Virus record (IMG/VR): IMGVR_UViG_3300044960_000642 | Coordinates: 1 to 30,002 of that record | From: a virus | Reading direction: 5' to 3' (one strand) | Length of the DNA: 30,002 nucleotides | In this document: piece by piece, positions 12,979 to 27,590 of the stretch | Layout: each line of letters opens with the position of its first letter | Numbering within the stretch: position 1 is the stretch's first letter | The notes under the pieces: model-generated | Databases searched by the model: none | The model's input: the letters and a program-made list of their open reading frames with translations, nothing else | Told to the model about the DNA's origin: nothing | Program-made: the position numbers and the translations under genes

Positions 12979-14361
12979 TCAGAACGTCGGGGTGACGAGA
13001 CCGGTGCCGCCGACCGTGCCGTGCGCGGCCGGGTAGCGGCCCGCCGTGAACGCGCTGAAGCCGTACACGACGAACTTGACGGTCAGGTTCCCGGCCGCGG
13101 TCTGCTCGGCCCGGACGAACAGCGGCGCGTCCTCCTGCTCCCACAGGTGCAGCTCGGACGCGGTCACACCGAGGATGACGTCCTCGTTCGTGCCCGCCCC
13201 GAGGTTCGTCGGGATGTTCCCGTCGAGCACGACCGGCACACCGAACAGCAGCCGGTCGGACGACTCGTAGCTCGTGTCGCCCGCGTTGCCCGCGACCTGC
13301 GGTGCCGTCGCCGGCATCTGCAGGAACGGGAACGTCGACCCGATCTCCTTCGCGATCCACCACCAGCGACGCGGGTGCATCACGAAGTGGGAGATGCCGA
13401 GGAACACCGACGACTGGATCTGCTGGATCAGGTCGGCGAGCTTCGGGTACAGCTCGGCGGCGGTCGGCGACGCGTCCGTGTACGTGACCGACACGATTCC
13501 CGACGTCGACCGGATTCCGAGATGCGTCCCCGAGGTGCCGTCGCCGTTGAGGATCTGGTTGTCGAGCGTCGTGTTGTACGCGGTGACGAGATCGGTGAGG
13601 ACGATCTCGTCGACACCGACACCGCGCTCGATCGCCTGGCGGGACACGTCCTGCTGTCCGGCGATCGTCCGCACGTTCACCGTCAGCAGCGTGTCGTCCA
13701 TGTCGGTCTCGGACACGGCCGCGTTCTCCGACGCCTGCGCGGCCGCGGACGAACCCGTCGTGATCCGCGAGATGTTCACGGTCATGCCGGACGGCGGCAG
13801 CGGGTGACGCGCAGCGATGTTCGCGACGGGACGTCCGGCCCGGCGGACCGGCGCGACGAGATCCGTCAGGTACTGCGGGACGACGAGCCCGGCGAACGCG
13901 CCGGTGCCGACGTCACGGGTCTCGACCTCCGCCTGCGCCTGATGGCGGCGGAGCCGCTCCGCGGCCGACGGGTCGTGCGACGCGTTGACGAGGTCCCGGA
14001 AGAACGACACGCCGTGTCGACGTTCCGCGTCCCGCGAGTACACGGCGGGTTCGCTGCGGACCTGGACCGGACGGGCCGTGTCGTCGGCCGGGCCGCCCCA
14101 GCGGGCCGCGGCCGCGGCGGCCGCCTCGGCACGGGCACGGTGCTCGACGATCAGCTCGATGCGCTCGTCGAGCTGGCCGATCGCCTCGTCGTGCTCGGTG
14201 ATCGTCGCGGACAGCGCCTCGAACCGGACGGTCTCGTCGGCGTTCAGGTTGCGCTGCTCGGCGCCGACCTGCTCGAGCAGCTGGTCCATCTCGGCCTGGA
14301 CGGCCTGACGGGAGTCGTAGCGTGCACGCCGCTCGGCGCGCAGCACATCGAGAAGGTCCAT
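12979..14361 (-). CDS. major capsid protein, HK97 fold
   Basis: This 460-residue protein has an N-terminal about 100 residues that are charged and helical (RAERRARYDSRQAVQAEMDQ and on), the delta/scaffold-like part removed by the prohead protease in HK97-type phages. The mature part from about 150 has the expected landmarks: VETRDVGTGAFAGLVVPQYL, ITTGSSAAAQASENAAVSE, QDVSRQAIERG, DNQILNGDGTSGTHLG, HPRRWWWIAKE, LLFGVPVVLDGNIP, and an end with LTVKFVVYGFSAF. The protein forms the icosahedral shell. It follows the protease gene with a 93-base gap holding a small hairpin, and a strong hairpin lies after its stop. Confidence 0.95.
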   Translation of the reverse strand: MDLLDVLRAERRARYDSRQAVQAEMDQLLEQVGAEQRNLNADETVRFEALSATITEHDEAIGQLDERIELIVEHRARAEAAAAAAARWGGPADDTARPVQVRSEPAVYSRDAERRHGVSFFRDLVNASHDPSAAERLRRHQAQAEVETRDVGTGAFAGLVVPQYLTDLVAPVRRAGRPVANIAARHPLPPSGMTVNISRITTGSSAAAQASENAAVSETDMDDTLLTVNVRTIAGQQDVSRQAIERGVGVDEIVLTDLVTAYNTTLDNQILNGDGTSGTHLGIRSTSGIVSVTYTDASPTAAELYPKLADLIQQIQSSVFLGISHFVMHPRRWWWIAKEIGSTFPFLQMPATAPQVAGNAGDTSYESSDRLLFGVPVVLDGNIPTNLGAGTNEDVILGVTASELHLWEQEDAPLFVRAEQTAAGNLTVKFVVYGFSAFTAGRYPAAHGTVGGTGLVTPTF

Positions 14362-14423
14362 CGTTCCTCCACGTGTGTGGTGCGCCGAGTGGTCGTCCGC
14401 GAGTGGCCGTTCGGTCCGGCTCG

Positions 14424-19019: not shown

Positions 19020-19036
19020 TCGCGGACGGCACGCAT
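18638..19036 (-). CDS. small exported protein, C-terminus uncertain
   Basis: This 132-residue open frame begins MRAVRDYGLAVLGGIVLALM, a basic start followed by a hydrophobic helix, then LAATADAHT as a likely signal-peptidase site. The next about 40 residues (EAPHDICVLADGTEF and on, with two cysteines) have ordinary composition. From about residue 68 the sequence becomes Ser/Arg-rich (IRSSISASRSSSACCRSS), typical of a frame read antisense to an acidic coding region, so the true protein may end earlier or shift frame. The ATG overlaps the stop of the Ala-repeat gene (TGATG) and has a GGGGAG 6-9 bases upstream. The function is unknown. Confidence 0.5.
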   Translation of the reverse strand: MRAVRDYGLAVLGGIVLALMLAATADAHTPDTEAPHDICVLADGTEFKTEPGNCPAVDDVVVIDEPRSSSRLRGTSRSCRAAAARTASASGIRSSISASRSSSACCRSSPRRSSTSIRRSSSASSSSCSTSS

Positions 19037-19743
19037 CACTTTCTCCCCACCGCGCACATGCGGTCGAGCAGCTCGCATGCCGACTGCTGCAACTCGTCGA
19101 CGGTGTCCGCAAGAGCGTCCCCCGCAGCGGCCCCCGCAGCGGCCCACGCAGCGGCCCACGCAGCGTCCAACGCAGCGTCCAACGCAGCGTCCCACGCAGC
19201 GTCCCCCGCAGCGGCCCACGCAGCGACCAACGCAGCGTCCAACGCAGCGACCAACGCAGCGTCCAACGCAGCGTCCAACGCAGCGACCCCCGCAGCGTCC
19301 AACGCAGCGTCAGCGCGTTCGCGTGCCTCGCGGATCGTCGGCAACGCCGCGTCGACGAGCTCGGTCGCGGTCAGCTCAGGCAGCGCTTCGAGCGCGGCGG
19401 CCTCCGCGGTGAGGCCAGCGCGCCGGAGCCATGCGGGCGTGAACGTGCGGACGAGCCAGTCGTAGGCCATCCACGTACGCCGCTCGTCGTCCTCCGGGCC
19501 GATGTTGGTGCCGATGACCTGCGGGATGAATGGCCGCAACAGACGCGTACGCGTCTCGGCGTCGGGGATAGCGTCGTTCCACGCGATGCAGAACGCGCGG
19601 ATGACTGGCGACACACACTCGGGCGCGTCGGTGAAGTCCTCGGACGCGTAGAGCGCGGCGGCTTCCATGACGCACATGCCGTCGTCGGGTGTCGCGTGCG
19701 TTCCGTGGTCGAGGACGATGCTGTCGAGGTCGAGCGCGCTCAT
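19036..19743 (-). CDS. conserved phage/actinobacterial protein with Ala-rich repeat tail
   Basis: This 235-residue protein has an N-terminal domain of about 140 residues. It carries the pattern DHGTHATPDDGMCVMEAAALY, CVSPVIRAFCIAWNDAIPD, LLRPFIPQVIGT and WMAYDWLVRTFTPAWLRRAGL (each in part), a family I have seen in phage and actinobacterial genomes without an assigned function. The C-terminal about 65 residues are tetrapeptide repeats (AALD, AAWA, AAGD, AALV) encoded by sixteen 12-bp units. After the repeat, LADTVDELQQSACELLDRM forms a charged amphipathic helix. The first residues overlap the next gene's stop (TGATG). The repeat could form a long helical rod. Confidence 0.65.
   Translation of the reverse strand: MSALDLDSIVLDHGTHATPDDGMCVMEAAALYASEDFTDAPECVSPVIRAFCIAWNDAIPDAETRTRLLRPFIPQVIGTNIGPEDDERRTWMAYDWLVRTFTPAWLRRAGLTAEAAALEALPELTATELVDAALPTIREARERADAALDAAGVAALDAALDAALVAALDAALVAAWAAAGDAAWDAALDAALDAAWAAAWAAAGAAAGDALADTVDELQQSACELLDRMCAVGRK
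19124..19311 (-). repeat. sixteen 12-bp tandem units within the Ala-repeat gene
   Basis: On the plus strand GCAGCG recurs every 12 bp from 19124 to 19304 (16 copies), with the other six bases drawn from a small set (tccaac, gcccac, accaac, tcccac and similar). The unit is a multiple of 3, so copy number can change without frameshift. Each unit encodes Ala-Ala plus two variable residues. Confidence 0.9.
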
Positions 19744-22491: not shown

Positions 22492-23513
22492 GAGCGGAAG
22501 TCCACGCAGTTCGTCACGAACGGCCGTCGCTTGCCGTCGTCCACGGCGCCGTTGTGCGCGAGATACTGCGCGTCGTTGACCGGACCGCGGTTGCCCGTCA
22601 TCCGCACGTGCGCGGCGTCGCGGAACCTGAACATGCGGCCGGGTGCTTCCGGCTGCGTCCACGAGTTACCGACGACCTCGATGTTGCGGAACAGCGGCCA
22701 GCGTGCGCCGGCCGTGTCCTTGTCGGGCCCGTCCACCCACACCGCGAAGCCAAATCGTCCGGTGCGGCGGTTGTCCGCGATGGTCACGTCCTCGAGCCGC
22801 ATCCGACCACCGGCCACGAGATGCACCGCCGCACCGCCCCCGCCGACGATGCGGTTGCGTGCGAATGTCAACGGTCCGAGCGTCGTCGGGCGGCGGCCCG
22901 CCTCGACGAGCATTACCGTCGACGCGATGCCCCACCACTCACACTCGATGACGCGCAAGCTCTCGAAATCGTTCGCGCACACGCCGGCGCGTCCGACACG
23001 TGACACCACGCAGCCTCTGAGAAACACGTTCTTCGACGGGTGACGTTCGCGGTAGTGACTCGCGACGTTGAACGCGTCACCATGCACGTCCGCGACACGG
23101 CAACGCTCGAGGTGCACGACCTCGCAGCCGAGCAGATGGAAGCCGTGCTGCGCTTCGAACGTGCGGTTACGGCCGCTGCGTTGTTTCGTGCCATGGACCG
23201 TCAAGCCGGCGATGAACAGCCAACCGCAGTTGCGGAACCGCAGATGGGCGCGTGACGTGACGTCCGTGCCTGACAGTCCGCCGGTGTCGGTGACGCTCGT
23301 GATCGTCGCGCTGTCGCCGTAGATCGACTTGCCCCACATGTCCTCGACCTCGACGGTCCGATCGCACTGGTAGGTGCGCGTGCCGAGGTCGAGTGCGTCG
23401 TACGGCGACGCCGCGAACCGCTGCAGCACGCTGGTGAGCAGTTCGGTGTCGTCGCGTTCGCCGAACCGTTCGCCCGGTCGCAGCAGCTCGTCGACGTGCA
23501 CTACACCTCGCAT
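22461..23513 (-). CDS. right-handed beta-helix protein (pectate-lyase-like fold)
   Basis: This is a 350-residue protein from the ATG at 23513, with AGGAG 6 bases upstream. The N-terminal part has DDTELLTSVLQRFAAS and DALDLGTRTYQCDRTVEV (about 20-60), the entry pattern of beta-helix proteins. The rest is a run of short N/G/V-rich coils (LRFRNCGWLFIAGLTVHG, VVHLERCRVADVHGDAFNV, and on to FRFRDAAHVRMTGNRG). Such folds serve as phage tail spikes or polysaccharide depolymerases. No signal peptide or classical catalytic triad was found. It lies in the replication region, not with the tail genes, so it may be a late-acquired moron gene. The fold is likely; the activity is unknown. Confidence 0.65.
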   Translation of the reverse strand: MRGVVHVDELLRPGERFGERDDTELLTSVLQRFAASPYDALDLGTRTYQCDRTVEVEDMWGKSIYGDSATITSVTDTGGLSGTDVTSRAHLRFRNCGWLFIAGLTVHGTKQRSGRNRTFEAQHGFHLLGCEVVHLERCRVADVHGDAFNVASHYRERHPSKNVFLRGCVVSRVGRAGVCANDFESLRVIECEWWGIASTVMLVEAGRRPTTLGPLTFARNRIVGGGGAAVHLVAGGRMRLEDVTIADNRRTGRFGFAVWVDGPDKDTAGARWPLFRNIEVVGNSWTQPEAPGRMFRFRDAAHVRMTGNRGPVNDAQYLAHNGAVDDGKRRPFVTNCVDFRSWANVLQVAR

Positions 23514-23534
23514 TCGATTCTCCTCTCGGGGGCT

Positions 23535-23571
23535 GGACGTCCGGGACCGGATGCGTCGGTCCCGGACGTCC
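23535..23571 (-). promoter_or_regulatory. perfect 15-bp hairpin ahead of the beta-helix gene
   Basis: The arms 23535-23549 and 23557-23571 are perfectly complementary with a 7-base loop. It lies in the 64-base gap between the small membrane-protein gene and the beta-helix gene. No T-run follows on the leftward strand, so it may be a processing or pausing signal. Its arms share the GGTCCCGGA / CCGGGACC core with the hairpin after the capsid gene. Confidence 0.7.
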
Positions 23572-23577
23572 GGTCGG

Positions 23578-23757
23578 TCACCGGTAGCGGACCTTCGGAG
23601 CTCCACCAGCGAGGTACAGCGCGACGAGACCGACGGCGAGCCCGAACGCACGGACGTACGTGCGCCGTGCCGTCATGGTGGCGGTCCGTCGCCAGCCGCC
23701 GATCCGCAGCTCGTCGGCCGTGTGCCCCGTCATGGTGGCGTGGTAGCTCGGAAGCAT
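23578..23757 (-). CDS. small membrane protein
   Basis: This 59-residue protein has a very strong ribosome site (AGGAGGTG, 7 bases before the ATG). It has a charged N-terminal half (MTGHTADELRIGGWRRTATM), one transmembrane helix (about 36-52, VRAFGLAVGLVALYLAGG), and a basic end (KVRYR). It follows the Rpf-like lipoprotein gene by 17 bases, so the pair could act together at the membrane or wall. The function is unknown; a holin-like role is conceivable but weakly supported because the holin candidates lie at 3411-3865. Confidence 0.6.
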   Translation of the reverse strand: MLPSYHATMTGHTADELRIGGWRRTATMTARRTYVRAFGLAVGLVALYLAGGAPKVRYR

Positions 23758-23774
23758 CGTTTCACCTCCTCTCA

Positions 23775-24368
23775 TCAGCAGGCGGCCCAGTGGCCGCAGC
23801 CGGCGCCGCCCGCCCACAGGTGGCGGGCTGCGGCATCCTGCTCGTCGGGCGATGCGAGGTAGTTCCCGACGAGGTCGGGTCGTCCCATCGCCCGGACGGT
23901 CGCGTCCCACGTACGCGGGTCGAACTGCCAGCCGCCGTAGCAGCCGCGTCCACCGCAGCCGGTCGGGTTCACGGCGCCGTAGTCGCCGCCCGACTCGCGG
24001 GCCTTGACCCAGCAGGGCGGCAGGTCGCCGCCACAACGCCCGCCCGCGTCCGGCGGCGGGGTGGACGGCCCGGACCGTGCCGGCGGCGCAGACCGGCGCT
24101 GGGCGGCTCTGGCGGCCTCCTGACGGTCGAGCTCGGCCTGCCAGACCGCCCGGTTCCACACGGCGACCTGCCAGGCGTGGATGTCGGCGGCGAGGCGGGT
24201 GAGGTCGACGTCCGGGTCGGACGGCGGGCTCGAGCTGGTCGTCGTCGTGGTGGTGGTGGTGGTGGTGGTCGGCACGGTGACCTCCAGCTGCTCGGGCGGT
24301 TGACCGCACGCGGCGGTCAGGACGGCGACGAGCAGCAGGCCAGCCAGGAACGGGTGAGGTCGGGACAC
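23775..24368 (-). CDS. lipoprotein with Rpf/transglycosylase-like domain
   Basis: This 197-residue protein has a signal sequence, LLLVAVLTAAC, whose lipobox (L-T-A-A-C) places the lipidated Cys at residue 21. A spacer follows with eleven Thr in a row (34-44) and a helical/Pro-rich region to about 110. The C-terminal about 85 residues have CWVKARESGGDYGAVNPTG with the catalytic-type Glu125 and GCYGGWQFDPRTW, the resuscitation-promoting-factor/lysozyme-like fold. Six cysteines in the domain suggest disulfides. Rpf-like enzymes cleave peptidoglycan glycan strands. In a phage it could alter the host wall or hinder superinfection; it is unlikely to be the lysis enzyme. The GTG start lies 9 bases after AGGAGG. 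Confidence 0.8.
   Translation of the reverse strand: MSRPHPFLAGLLLVAVLTAACGQPPEQLEVTVPTTTTTTTTTTTSSSPPSDPDVDLTRLAADIHAWQVAVWNRAVWQAELDRQEAARAAQRRSAPPARSGPSTPPPDAGGRCGGDLPPCWVKARESGGDYGAVNPTGCGGRGCYGGWQFDPRTWDATVRAMGRPDLVGNYLASPDEQDAAARHLWAGGAGCGHWAAC
24237..24269 (-). repeat. trinucleotide run encoding eleven threonines
   Basis: The plus strand reads GTC/GTG triplets in a row across 33 bases, which the lipoprotein gene translates as eleven Thr after the lipobox. Triplet runs can change length in frame, so the tether may vary among relatives. Confidence 0.8.
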
Positions 24369-24405
24369 GTCATCGGTCCTCCTTCTCGGCAGCAGGGACA
24401 GGTGG

Positions 24406-25659
24406 TCAGAACGGCTCCTCGTCTGACCACAACGTGTGGTTATCCACAGGTTCGGGGTCTGGTTGTGGATGACGGCCGGTCGGTTCCAGTCGGGCCATCA
24501 TTCGGTCGTGGCCCGACTGAGACGGTTCGGACGGACCGTCCGCTCCGATGCCGCCTCCATGGCGGGTTTCCGCGGCCGCTCCAGTCGGGCCATGCCCGAT
24601 GGCCCGACTGTGCGTGGCCCGACTTGACAAAGGGAGCATCCAGTGCGTTTCGGACGGCCAGCCGGACCGGTCGACGACCACGCTCAGCGCGCGGCGAGCC
24701 CGCTTCAGGGTCGTGTCCGAGATGCCCTCGGCCGCAGCGCGGCGTTTCAGCTCGCGGCTTGGCTGCGGGCCGCCGGCGAGGGCGTGCCGGAGGAAGTCGA
24801 TCGCGTCGTCGAGCAGGCACCGGTCGTCCGGGTCGGTCGCGTCGAGGACACGGTCGGGATCGAGGCCCTCGGCGATCCCGCACCAGGCGATCCCGGACGT
24901 GTCGACCGGCCCGGACGGCGACTCGACGACGCGGGCCTCGACCCGGAACCGCAGCGGCGGCACGTCCTCGCGGGCCGTCAGGTTGGCCTTGCTGAGCACG
25001 ATGACCCGTTCGCGTTCGTCGTCCGGGTGCGGTGCGATCGTGAGGACGGCACGGGCGGCCGAGGTGAAGGCGGTCGAGCCCGAGACGCGCAGGAGCGGGT
25101 CGGTCGTCGGGGCTTTCGAGTGGTGCGCGACGCCGAGCACCGCAAGGTCCCATGTCTGGGCGATCGCGGCGAGGGTCCCGATTGCCCGCTGCGTCTCGGC
25201 CTTCTTGTGCGTGTCGGCCGCGAGATGGGCGTCGAGCGGGTCGACGACGACCAGCCGCGGGCAGGACAGTGTCCCGAGCAGCGTCTCGAGCTCCAGGTCG
25301 TCTCCAGGGACGCTCCAGACGGCCCCTGCGGCCCGTGAGCGCACGTACCAGACTCGGGTGAGGTCAGCACCCGCAGCCCGCAGACGAGGCGCTGAGACAG
25401 TCTCCAGCATGTCCTCGAGGCCGACCAGGACGACGTCCGCCGGTGTGCCGGCGAGGTCGCCGTCGAGCTGCCCGCGGCTCACCCTGGCGGCGATCTCGTG
25501 CGCAACCGTCGACTTGCCGAGTCCCTCCCGGCCGGGCAGCAGCGTGACGCCGCCGAGCGGGACGCGTCGGTCCCACAGCCACCGGACCCGTCGTACCTCG
25601 AGGGCCGAGGCGGGCAGCAGCTCCCAGCTCACGACGTCGTCGTCGGTCCAGCTCACCAT
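24406..25659 (-). CDS. RecA-fold replicative ATPase (RepA/AAA_25-like)
   Basis: This 417-residue protein has Walker A GREGLGKS (43-50), Walker B RLVVVDPLD (135-143, Asp140), a sensor region with GVAHHSK (176-182), and a helical domain. A C-terminal winged-helix element follows (SRELKRRAAAEGISDTTLKRA, in part, about 291-311), the pattern of phage and plasmid RepA-like helicase-loader or helicase proteins. Residues about 337-417 are low in structure and their DNA contains the origin-like repeats. The last residues, LWSDEEPF, end like the acidic tip of SSB. An ATG at 25659 with GGGGAGG 6 bases upstream overlaps the preceding gene by 7 bases. It most likely drives or loads the replication fork. 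Confidence 0.8.
   Translation of the reverse strand: MVSWTDDDVVSWELLPASALEVRRVRWLWDRRVPLGGVTLLPGREGLGKSTVAHEIAARVSRGQLDGDLAGTPADVVLVGLEDMLETVSAPRLRAAGADLTRVWYVRSRAAGAVWSVPGDDLELETLLGTLSCPRLVVVDPLDAHLAADTHKKAETQRAIGTLAAIAQTWDLAVLGVAHHSKAPTTDPLLRVSGSTAFTSAARAVLTIAPHPDDERERVIVLSKANLTAREDVPPLRFRVEARVVESPSGPVDTSGIAWCGIAEGLDPDRVLDATDPDDRCLLDDAIDFLRHALAGGPQPSRELKRRAAAEGISDTTLKRARRALSVVVDRSGWPSETHWMLPLSSRATHSRAIGHGPTGAAAETRHGGGIGADGPSEPSQSGHDRMMARLEPTGRHPQPDPEPVDNHTLWSDEEPF
24426..24624. other. candidate replication origin inside the ATPase gene
   Basis: Five exact copies of AGTCGGGCCA or its complement occur here: 24488-24497 (+), 24509-24518 (-), 24583-24592 (+), 24600-24609 (-) and 24615-24624 (-). 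They form two inverted pairs and one extra. Next to them lies TTATCCACA at 24440-24448, an exact match to the DnaA-box consensus, and at 24464-24472 on the other strand TCATCCACA with one change. A palindrome ACCACA-acg-TGTGGT covers 24426-24440. Iterons within the 3' part of an initiation gene recall lambda ori in gene O. Confidence 0.65.
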
Positions 25660-26054
25660 GCCCGCCTCCCCCTCGTCATCGTCCGTGTGCGGCGGTCGTA
25701 GTCGTCGAGGAGCCGCCGCCACCAGGTCCACGGCAGCCGCCGCATGAGGACCGGGACGTCCGGGTCCGGCTCGGCCGTCCACCGGACGAGCCGGTCCCGT
25801 CCGGCTGTCGAGTCGAGATCGCCACGGCGGACGGCGTCGACGAGCCCGGCGGTCCGGCGGCGGACCTGTGCGTAGTAGGCGACCCGAGCGTCATGCCGTG
25901 CCTCGACCAGCCGACGGAACAGCCGGTCGAGCTCGGTTCGCTCACGCTCGTCGAGTGTGCGGTCGGGTCGTGCCGCCGGCGTCCACTCGCGTGCCCGTGC
26001 GAGCTCCCGTGCGGTCCGGGCCGACAGGAACCGGCGCAGATGCGGTCCGCTCAC
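25653..26054 (-). CDS. early phage protein of unknown function
   Basis: This 133-residue protein starts at a GTG that overlaps the preceding stop as GTGA. It is basic and helical: RRFLSARTARELARAREWTP, ERTELDRLFRRLVEARHDAR, and an ending with LPWTWWRRLLDDYDRR. The Trp-rich end and Arg content suggest nucleic-acid or protein contact, but no known domain was recognised. It lies between the HNH gene and the replicative ATPase and overlaps the latter, so a replication role is plausible. The longer frame upstream of the GTG runs through the HNH gene and is not coding-like. Confidence 0.6.
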   Translation of the reverse strand: MSGPHLRRFLSARTARELARAREWTPAARPDRTLDERERTELDRLFRRLVEARHDARVAYYAQVRRRTAGLVDAVRRGDLDSTAGRDRLVRWTAEPDPDVPVLMRRLPWTWWRRLLDDYDRRTRTMTRGRRAW

Positions 26055-26413
26055 CGGTCCGTCTCCTCGACGAGCCTGGCGAGCCGGTCGGCGACCGTGT
26101 CCCAGTCGACCGGGCCTGACCGTCGCCGCATCTGCTCGAGCCTCCGGAGCTGCGTGTCGGTGCGGACCGTGCGCAGCCAGCGGACGAACTCGACCGGGCA
26201 GTCGGTCGCCCAGTGGTGGCAGGCGGCGCACAGACACAGCACGTTGTCGAGGTCGTGCCGGATGGCGCTGAATCGCCGCGACCAGATGTGCGCGGTCTGC
26301 AGGTGCGCCACCGTCCCGCAGTGCTCGCAAGCACCACGTGACCGGATCAGCTGTGACAGGAGCCGGTCGGCGCGGCCCTTCGCGCCGACCGCTCGCCGCA
26401 TCGAGCGGCTCAC
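26051..26413 (-). CDS. HNH-type nuclease/recombination protein
   Basis: This is a 120-residue protein from the GTG overlapping the preceding stop (GTGA); an ATG lies 4 codons in. CEHCG (about 29-33) and CLCAACHHW (about 61-69) hold the metal-binding cysteines, with LQTAHIWSRR between them giving the catalytic-type His, the HNH arrangement. The C-terminal half is a charged helix (FVRWLRTVRTDTQLRRLEQM and on). Similar small HNH proteins in early operons process recombination or replication intermediates. It stands two genes before the ATPase. The nuclease fold is likely; the substrate is unknown. Confidence 0.75.
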   Translation of the reverse strand: MSRSMRRAVGAKGRADRLLSQLIRSRGACEHCGTVAHLQTAHIWSRRFSAIRHDLDNVLCLCAACHHWATDCPVEFVRWLRTVRTDTQLRRLEQMRRRSGPVDWDTVADRLARLVEETDR

Positions 26414-26703
26414 GCCTGGTCCCGCCAGGACGGTGGGACGGTCTCGATGTCCGCGAGCTGCTCGCGAAACGCGTCGACGGTCGCGTCGACGAGAACGGCG
26501 GGCCGGTAGATGCGGGCGCTGCCGACACGTCGCAGCAGGTCGGGCCAGACGGCCTGTGGCCAGGCGTGCCACACGGTCCGGTCGCATCCGCCGGGACATT
26601 GCCACACGCTGATGAGCAGATCCGGGGCGAAGTGGAACAGCGCGACCCGTCGCGTGTCGAGCTGTTGTGATCCGTCGCGGTCGCACGGCATCGTGATCAG
26701 CAT
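26410..26703 (-). CDS. small Cys-containing phage protein
   Basis: This 97-residue protein begins MLITMPCDRDGSQQLDTRRV, then VALFHFAPDLLISVWQCPGG-C, and ends PAVLVDATVDAFREQLADIE (each in part). The three cysteines (CDRD, CPGGC) could bind one metal with a His. The AGGGG sequence upstream of the ATG at 26703 fits a ribosome site. The family is not recognised; it lies in a run of small early genes with overlapping ends. Confidence 0.6.
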   Translation of the reverse strand: MLITMPCDRDGSQQLDTRRVALFHFAPDLLISVWQCPGGCDRTVWHAWPQAVWPDLLRRVGSARIYRPAVLVDATVDAFREQLADIETVPPSWRDQA

Positions 26704-26717
26704 CGTGTTCCCCTCAG

Positions 26718-27065
26718 TCAGAACGTCGCGGCCCGCACGTTCGCGTTCAACGACCGGAGCGCGTCGAGCTGCGCGCGGACGTGTCGGCCCGCCTCTTGTG
26801 CGGCGAGCAGCCGTGCCTCGGCGATCTTGCGTTCGGTCAGCAGGTCGGCGACGACGAGCGTCGCGGCCGCCTCCCGTTCCGCGGCGGTCCGCCCGTCCGC
26901 GCGCAGCAGCGCTTGCGCGAAGCCGATCCGGTAGCGGGCTTCGAGTGTCGCGGCTTCCTCCGCCCGTGCTGCGATCTCCTCGACGAGCTGCTCGGACCGG
27001 TCGCACAGCCGCATGATCTCGGCCTCGACGGTCGTGACCGCGAGCGGGCTAGAACGGTTCGTCAT
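26718..27065 (-). CDS. coiled-coil early phage protein
   Basis: This 115-residue protein is almost fully helical: VEAEIMRLCDRSEQLVEEIA, then AEEAATLEARYRIGFAQALL, then AEREAAATLVVADLLTERKI, then AQEAGRHVRAQLDALRSLN. The 'YR.GFAQALL.A.G....ERE' and 'AQEAGR..RAQLDALRS.N' pattern is one I know from early genes of many actinophages, where its role has not been named. It overlaps the upstream SSB-like gene by 17 bases. It probably forms a dimeric coiled coil and may help recombination or replication. Confidence 0.7.
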   Translation of the reverse strand: MTNRSSPLAVTTVEAEIMRLCDRSEQLVEEIAARAEEAATLEARYRIGFAQALLRADGRTAAEREAAATLVVADLLTERKIAEARLLAAQEAGRHVRAQLDALRSLNANVRAATF

Positions 27066-27402
27066 CGGCGACCGGCTCGCGTGCCACGGCGGGTTCGTGC
27101 TTGACCGCGAACAGCTTCATCGGCTGCGGCTTGCCGATCGCGCGTGCCTCCACGAACTTGATCGCCAACTTGTCGCCCACCTGCGGGTTCACCTCGACGA
27201 TCTGGCGGCGCAGGTCCACCGGGCCGATCACGACACGATGCACGGTGCCGTCACGTGACTCGAGCGTGACGACCGGGAAGGCGCCGCCCTGGAGCTGCTC
27301 GACGGTGATCGCCGTGATCGTGCCGCCGACCTGCTGGCCGATCTCCGTCCATCGGACCAGGTCGTCGTCGGGCGCGTATTCGGACCAGTCGAACTCGCTC
27401 AT
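27049..27402 (-). CDS. single-stranded-DNA-binding-like protein (OB-type)
   Basis: This 117-residue protein begins FDWSEYAPDDDLVRWTEIGQ, then IGQQVGGTITAITVEQLQGG, strands VVTLESRDGTVHRVVIGPVD and QVGDKLAIKFVEAR, and it ends VADDEPF. The strand order fits an OB fold and the C-terminus matches the acidic tip by which SSB proteins call partners to single-stranded DNA (bacterial tips end D-D-x-P-F). It would coat DNA during phage replication. The ribosome site AGGAG is 5 bases before the ATG. The SSB role is inferred from these features, not from a confirmed family match. Confidence 0.6.
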   Translation of the reverse strand: MSEFDWSEYAPDDDLVRWTEIGQQVGGTITAITVEQLQGGAFPVVTLESRDGTVHRVVIGPVDLRRQIVEVNPQVGDKLAIKFVEARAIGKPQPMKLFAVKHEPAVAREPVADDEPF

Positions 27403-27590
27403 CGTGTCTCCTCTCGTCGTTCGAGCACCGCGGTCACAACCGCGCGCACCAGCTCCGGATCGTCACTGAGCCACATCGGCGGCTCGTCCGGGCCGGACAT
27501 GACCACCGACACGTGTGCGTGACGATCCGTACGGGCGACGAACGGATTCGCGGCCGGGTCACGCAGCCAGTCCCGCATGCTGTCGTTCAT
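27399..27590 (-). CDS. small early protein, unknown
   Basis: This 63-residue protein, MNDSMRDWLRDPAANPFVAR then VSVVMSGPDEPPMWLSDDPE, ends in an acidic-basic helix. It overlaps both neighbours by 4 bases (ATGA). No family was recognised. The overlaps on both sides make it likely to be translated. Confidence 0.55.
   Translation of the reverse strand: MNDSMRDWLRDPAANPFVARTDRHAHVSVVMSGPDEPPMWLSDDPELVRAVVTAVLERREETR

Follow-up and report, generated by a model that had tools for sequence, protein, structure and literature searches.

An array of inverted 11-bp iterons lies in the 3′ part of a RepA-like replicative ATPase gene of a phage, and we consider it likely that this array is the target of the ATPase's own winged helix and, most probably, the cis-acting replication origin of the phage and its relatives. 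Two residues of the recognition helix track particular iteron bases across the family, and the array is retained among relatives whose protein tails cannot be aligned. Binding and origin activity, autonomous replication included, are inferences from these patterns. The record analysed, IMGVR_UViG_3300044960_000642, comprises 30,002 bases, and what we call the window, the whole stretch of DNA under analysis, spans all of it.

An inverted iteron array within a replicative ATPase gene

The open reading frame at 24406–25782 (minus strand) probably starts at an ATG at 25659, with a longer frame extending to a GTG at 25782. Its product matches PF13481 (E = 1.5 × 10−22, 80.6 bits against a cut-off of 27) and the primase/polymerase profile phrog_10729 (E = 1.5 × 10−24), and the profile of its family matches RSF1010 RepA (1g8y, E = 2.7 × 10−7) and RadA structures. 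The protein has an AAA_25/RecA core with the Walker A motif GREGLGKS; the AF2 model shows this RecA core and a C-terminal winged helix (wHTH; helices 301–310 and 315–324 and two strands, pLDDT 90–97). A Foldseek search with the whole model returned only generic RecA/RadA/KaiC folds and nothing new on the winged helix. The gene and its array are laid out as follows.

24406–25659, minus strand: RepA-like (AAA_25, RecA-fold) replicative ATPase gene (PF13481, phrog_10729, 1g8y profile match, AF2)
24634–24771, minus strand: C-terminal winged-helix domain, presumed iteron reader (AF2; recognition-helix/iteron covariation)
24409–24612, minus strand: disordered C-terminal tail of the ATPase, holding most of the array (AF2 residues 350–417, pLDDT < 50)
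24615–24625, minus strand: iteron 1, AAGTCGGGCCA (exact-copy search)
24600–24610, minus strand: iteron 2, CAGTCGGGCCA (exact-copy search)
24582–24592, plus strand: iteron 3, CAGTCGGGCCA (forms the palindrome 24582–24610 with iteron 2)
24509–24519, minus strand: iteron 4, CAGTCGGGCCA (exact-copy search)
24487–24497, plus strand: iteron 5, CAGTCGGGCCA (exact-copy search)

A preliminary description of the locus had reported five exact copies of the 10-mer AGTCGGGCCA in alternating orientation, a nested palindrome and two DnaA-like boxes. The five copies were confirmed within 138 bp (24488–24497 plus, 24509–24518 minus, 24583–24592 plus, 24600–24609 minus and 24615–24624 minus), so that the alternation holds only in part, the order being + − + − −. 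The unit is better described as an 11-mer, present as four copies of CAGTCGGGCCA and one of AAGTCGGGCCA. The palindrome was likewise confirmed (24582–24593/24599–24610, 12-bp arms, 5-nt loop), as were both boxes, 15–50 bp from the array, and all of these elements fall within residues ~387–449 of the 24406–25782 frame.

The clustering is specific to this site. A count of the 10-mer across the record, which had been proposed as a check, found no further exact copy of AGTCGGGCCA; allowing one mismatch gave 12 matches against 3.7 expected, with the seven inexact ones all scattered. The highest number of copies of any 10-mer per 200 bp was five in the observed sequence and two to three in 300 first-order Markov shuffles. 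The copies occupy differing reading frames as well as both orientations.

Two further features of the window are recorded here. A putative lysis protein is encoded at 23775–24368 (minus strand), with a lipoprotein-like N-terminus, a poly-Thr/Ser/Pro linker arising from a trinucleotide run and a transglycosylase-like domain. A 12-bp tandem repeat (CCAACGCAGCGT) at 19105–19311, within the frame 19036–19743 (minus strand), encodes a repetitive Ala/Asp-rich stretch.

The array persists in distant relatives

Close relatives of the whole phage were of little help. The only one found, contig IMGVR_UViG_3300045136_000441 (22,391 bp), stops before the array; over the 15.8 kb that were compared its identity is 99.994%, and it corresponds to window positions 1–22391. 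From its length and register we infer that one of its ends coincides precisely with window base 1, and this shared end may be a physical genome end or an assembly break common to both contigs. None of 50 records with ~41–52%-identical capsid proteins had an ATPase match, and a DNA-level search with the array region gave short chance matches in phages and none in plasmids.

Relatives of the ATPase were instead reached through the protein. The whole-ATPase and mixed-alignment scans that were run returned no matches. A 62-aa Walker-A fragment used as a query recovered two Streptomyces-type viral contigs, which were then aligned with two plasmid ATPases; this alignment brought in 47 loci, and genome searches added more. 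The resulting set comprises ~120 relatives from actinobacterial prophages, phages, plasmids and integrated elements, with ATPases 35–40% identical.

Across these loci the repeats concentrate at the same place. The 500 bp around the ATPase stop codon was the most repeat-dense zone in 28 of 41 non-redundant loci, where 2.7 would be expected (P ~ 5 × 10−24). Most family arrays are inverted sets of one word, whose form across groups is CAnTnnnnnCA; arrays of at least four copies of it occurred in 34 of 85 ATPase 3′-end regions compared with 2 of ~436 regions elsewhere in the same loci, and 33 of the 34 contained both orientations. Nineteen of them, that of the window included, lie inside the reading frame and 15 after the stop; in many loci the array has a different word shape, or there is no array at all. 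The array can shift across the stop codon among kin, as in Micromonospora (L122, inside the frame) and Salinispora (L119, after it), which have the word CAGTCGGCTCA (CAGTYGGCTCA) in common. In Planosporangium (L121), with an ATPase identity of 35%, the exact window word CAGTCGGGCCA is among the copies, and in the Mycobacterium phage Boilgate, CAGTCGGTGCA directly follows the stop of the ATPase gene (gp66).

One relative is of practical interest. The primase/helicase gene gp69 of the cultured Microbacterium phage Fizzles (L008) contains CTTGTGACAC six times, arranged as two inverted sets ~150–207 bp before its stop, followed by a Cys-rich tail, and offers a workable laboratory example.

The array behaves as non-coding DNA crossed by a reading frame

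In the AF2 model, the last 68 residues of the ATPase form a tail directly after the confident winged helix. In homologues this tail is absent or unalignable, and in Boilgate gp66 and Rando14 gp66 the protein ends within ~20 residues of the winged helix. The coding signature falls in the same segment: GC3 is 0.89 in the body of the window gene and 0.66 in its tail, and a drop from ~0.9 to ~0.6 was seen in all 12 in-frame arrays examined closely (the window and 11 relatives). The low GC3 of the tail, the mixed frames and orientations of the copies and the existence of homologues without a tail together indicate that the array behaves as non-coding DNA through which a frame happens to run. The preliminary description had proposed that the repeats shaped the protein tail rather than the reverse, and that they should be kept while the encoded residues drift. 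The latter is borne out computationally by arrays that persist in relatives with unalignable tails; the former is supported by this drift together with the fall in GC3 and the persisting DNA word.

The loss of coding signature is followed by a partial return. Over the last ten codons of the window gene, encoding HTLWSDEEPF, GC3 is back to 0.90, from which we consider it likely that the frame through the array is actually used. These codons include an acidic tip resembling that of SSB, and a second protein of the same operon ends similarly.

24409–24432, minus strand: SSB-like acidic C-terminal tip, LWSDEEPF (GC3 of the last ten codons; rarity of acidic-PF ends)
27049–27402, minus strand: 117-aa all-beta protein ending ADDEPF, possibly OB-fold/SSB-like, same operon (sequence; AF2)

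Acidic-PF ends are rare, occurring at 7 of 4,991 ORF C-termini in the DNA analysed, and some of these are probable SSBs; an SSB-like tip on the ATPase is a single case, and its function is inferred. The 117-aa protein is a distant relative of phiAsp2 Pas50, which has no such tip, and its single-sequence AF2 model is all-beta with low confidence. GC3 also recovers past the array in several relatives (for example L161, L164 and L195). We infer that the tail, in the window and in relatives, consists of an array-encoded linker followed by a C-terminal module. Separately, we observed that the C-termini of nine relatives (L155, L161, L170, L171, L177, L181, L192, L195 and L202) contain CxxC...CxxC-like possible zinc ribbons after the linker.

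Recognition-helix residues covary with iteron bases

The winged helix of the ATPase is encoded immediately upstream of the array, and two residues, x1 and x2, at the start of its recognition helix (motif ..SD-x1-TL-x2-RA..) link the ATPase to the array.

24712–24714, minus strand: codon of recognition-helix residue x1 (Thr357 of the 458-aa frame), which tracks iteron positions 8 and 9
24703–24705, minus strand: codon of recognition-helix residue x2 (Lys360), which tracks iteron position 7

The covariation was first spotted in ~10 loci and then tested in all. Arg or Thr at x1 went with C at iteron position 9 in 14 of 14 loci, and Ser, Ala or Pro with T in 18 of 18. Lys or Arg at x2 went with G at position 7 in 10 of 10, and other residues with a base other than G in 22 of 23, the exception being locus L201. 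The two residues combine factorially, such that (S,K) pairs with CAGTCGGGTCA and (R,D) with CATTCGCGCCA; further examples of (x1,x2) are (R,Q) with CAGTCGCGCCA in L116 and (A,K) with CAGTCGGCTCA in L119. Among 333 alignment columns, x1 ranked first for both position 8 and position 9 (z = 17.3 for the latter), and x2 ranked first for position 7 (z = 14.1), the runner-up columns for positions 7 and 9 reaching about half the top z-score.

Both rules predicted held-out loci without error (position 9, 7/7; position 7, 8/8). These loci were fetched later from other groups and were at most 75% identical to the training loci, with L218 excluded as identical to L132. Phylogenetically independent, well-supported comparisons are few: 3 of 3 and ~5 of 5 tree pairs were concordant (sign test, P = 0.25 and 0.06). 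Thr at x1 was found only in the window, which alone determined how it was classed; therefore, only the x2 prediction is independent there. The covariation is a computed result. That the ATPase binds its own 3′ iterons is, in our judgment, very likely, on the indirect evidence of this covariation and of the held-out prediction; there are no binding data.

DnaA boxes, AT content and GC skew at the array loci

The two DnaA-like boxes of the window are sequence matches of uncertain role.

24440–24448, plus strand: exact DnaA-box consensus TTATCCACA
24464–24472, minus strand: one-mismatch DnaA box TCATCCACA

As a family feature, DnaA boxes were rejected, since the count near the stop, 5 of 41 loci, hardly exceeds background; with boxes near the array in so few loci, the pair in the window may have been added or have arisen by chance. 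An AT-rich stretch is missing from the window locus, where GC content is at least 50% in every 30 bp (rank 6 of 12), and the spacer between its iteron sets is 63 bp of 73% GC. Extragenic arrays in the family usually flank the 30 bp of highest AT content in their own locus, whereas intragenic arrays, that of the window included, mostly do not lie beside such a segment. Cumulative GC skew in the window reaches its lowest point at 24051, ~400 bp away from the array, which is only weakly compatible with an origin because skew also tracks gene composition. In the circular Streptomyces plasmid CP108844 (L211), ~5 kb separate the array (14279–14423) from the ATPase gene; the array adjoins parA, and the cumulative skew maximum falls inside it; in plasmid NZ_CP058979 no extremum of cumulative skew was found at the array. 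Overall, the skew evidence for an origin is weak. The core of the preliminary description, an origin in the 3′ part of the ATPase gene, is supported and extended, its DnaA and skew components are not, and origin function itself remains inferred.

Other aspects of the family are in keeping with what is asked of an iteron origin. The window meets the criteria of clustered, near-identical sites within ~200 bp, unique in the record, located at or in an initiator gene and kept in kin; it does not meet that of an adjacent AT-rich unwinding element, which most extragenic family arrays do. Two circular Streptomyces plasmids (NZ_CP058979.1 and CP108844.1) and a 7.8-kb element (L258–L260, G1171) have no recognisable replication gene besides that of the ATPase. 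The 7.8-kb element also encodes a tyrosine integrase and was found both chromosomally integrated and in tandem/circular contigs at 100% identity; the tandem contigs suggest that it may form an excised multicopy circle.

Comparison with known replicons

Origins associated with initiator genes lie just 3′ of the gene in PICIs and pRN1 (PMC6092414, PMC4234260) and inside it in lambdoid phages (PMC7466680). A close parallel, proposed at the outset, is with lambda O, whose initiator likewise binds iterons within its own gene and in which extra iterons add residues to a part of the protein that does not contact DNA (PMC7466680). The lambda iterons, however, occupy the middle of the gene, next to an AT-rich region, whereas those of the window form inverted sets in a C-terminal tail after the DNA-binding domain, without an AT-rich region. 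Lambda O is not known to be an ATPase or to adopt a RecA fold. The parallel holds for intragenic placement, the criterion of iterons within the frame being met; the window initiator, an AAA_25/RecA-fold ATPase, is not of the lambda O family.

PICI/SaPI pri-rep-ori modules resemble the family in having two iteron sets immediately 3′ of a replication initiator gene, but there the iterons flank an AT-rich melting site (PMC6092414), while family arrays are often in frame and that of the window has no AT-rich part; the criterion of two iteron sets around an AT-rich region 3′ of rep is thus not met in the window. The PICI/SaPI initiator belongs to a different family. The pRN1-type replicons and phage BIP-1 have in common with our system a primase/helicase initiator with a C-terminal winged helix and an origin just downstream, yet their helicase is of the SF3 type and their origin is a 100-nt stem-loop stated to lack iterons (PMC4234260), in contrast to the RecA-like AAA_25 ATPase and iterons of the window. 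Plasmid pWTY27 (PMC3583192) and AICE Prim-Pol/RepPP modules (PMC3218068) are also actinobacterial mobile replicons, and have iterons. In pWTY27, RepA binds an array of inverted and direct repeats that is needed for replication, together with a primase/polymerase gene (PMC3583192); unlike that of the window, this array does not encode protein, and its binder is a different protein from the primase/polymerase. RSF1010 RepA (PDB 1g8y) has the same RecA-like replicative ATPase fold, but the window protein differs in having a winged helix fused to the ATPase. RSF1010 RepA is not known to bind the iterons itself; RepC does.

Alternative explanations

The best surviving alternative, which we nevertheless regard as unlikely, is that the array is an operator at which the ATPase or another regulator controls the ATPase/lysis operon or blocks read-through, with the origin elsewhere. 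The covariation speaks for binding and not for origin function, and the array sits between the ATPase gene and the lysis-type gene starting at 24368. Against this, the array lies at the 3′ end of a gene and not at a promoter, no σ70-like promoter was found in 23000–27500 (a weak test at such GC), copies are absent elsewhere in the record and, in plasmid CP108844, array and ATPase operon are found apart.

A partition (parS-like) site, or arm sites of an attP, is very unlikely. Both kinds of site can contain clustered direct and inverted 10-mers, the CP108844 array adjoins parA and several relatives carry tyrosine integrases. However, the window genes that were searched yielded no recognisable integrase or ParA, and the iteron bases covary with the ATPase recognition helix.

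We think it about as improbable that the array acts as RNA, with hairpins towards the 3′ end of the ATPase mRNA serving as a terminator, attenuator or processing site. Gene-strand RNA from 24470–24640 does fold unusually well (z = −4.2), but such folding is expected of any inverted array, and same-strand direct copies at 9-bp spacing with variable copy number would be odd for hairpins. Moreover, the bases covary with a DNA-binding helix, the array can be apart from the gene and an Rfam scan gave no match; a tRNA scan also found nothing.

A compositional accident or protein-level repeat without DNA function, for which high GC and low-complexity tails might argue, is all but ruled out by the shuffles, the differing frames and both orientations, the GC3 collapse and the persistence in kin. 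Partition, operator and RNA roles have not been excluded by experiment. The tracking of the word by the recognition helix is unexplained by these rivals, and only an operator bound by the ATPase itself could also account for it.

Proposed mechanism and implications

Under the origin reading, the recognition helix would dock ATPase subunits onto the inverted 11-bp iterons, with x2 reading position 7 and x1 reading positions 8–9 of CAnTnnnnnCA. The bound subunits would form, at the 3′ end of the ATPase's own gene, a RecA-like helicase ring that would then unwind DNA and recruit priming and elongation factors. As the frame continues through the array in the window phage and many relatives, the origin would double as code for a disordered linker. 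The SSB-like tip could recruit host replication proteins, replacing the primase domain that is fused in the polypeptide of relatives.

On balance, and by a modest margin, we favour a bolder reading, taken as one joint claim: that a widespread class of actinobacterial phage and plasmid replicons uses a RecA-like helicase as its own origin-binding protein, with a two-residue code for CAnTnnnnnCA, and that its origin codes for a disordered linker and a partner-recruiting module (the SSB-like tip here, possible zinc ribbons in kin). If this holds, origin specificity would switch through paired changes in helix and array. Relative to known iteron origins, the new elements would be that the origin is helicase-bound, 3′ or intragenic, and has a readable code. 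In the literature searched, limited to open-licence papers, we found no description of a helicase-bound 3′ or intragenic iteron arrangement; the Streptomyces plasmid pSLA2 is reported to have a phage-like origin with iterons in its rep gene.

Should the reading prove true, the origin of many actinobacterial mobile elements could be located, and its specificity read, from protein sequence alone. The window phage would also provide a clean case of dual-use DNA beyond lambda O, in which origin constraint shaped a protein tail. Finally, the two-residue code makes the co-evolution of initiator and origin, and the compatibility of replicons, testable in soil phages and Streptomyces plasmids.
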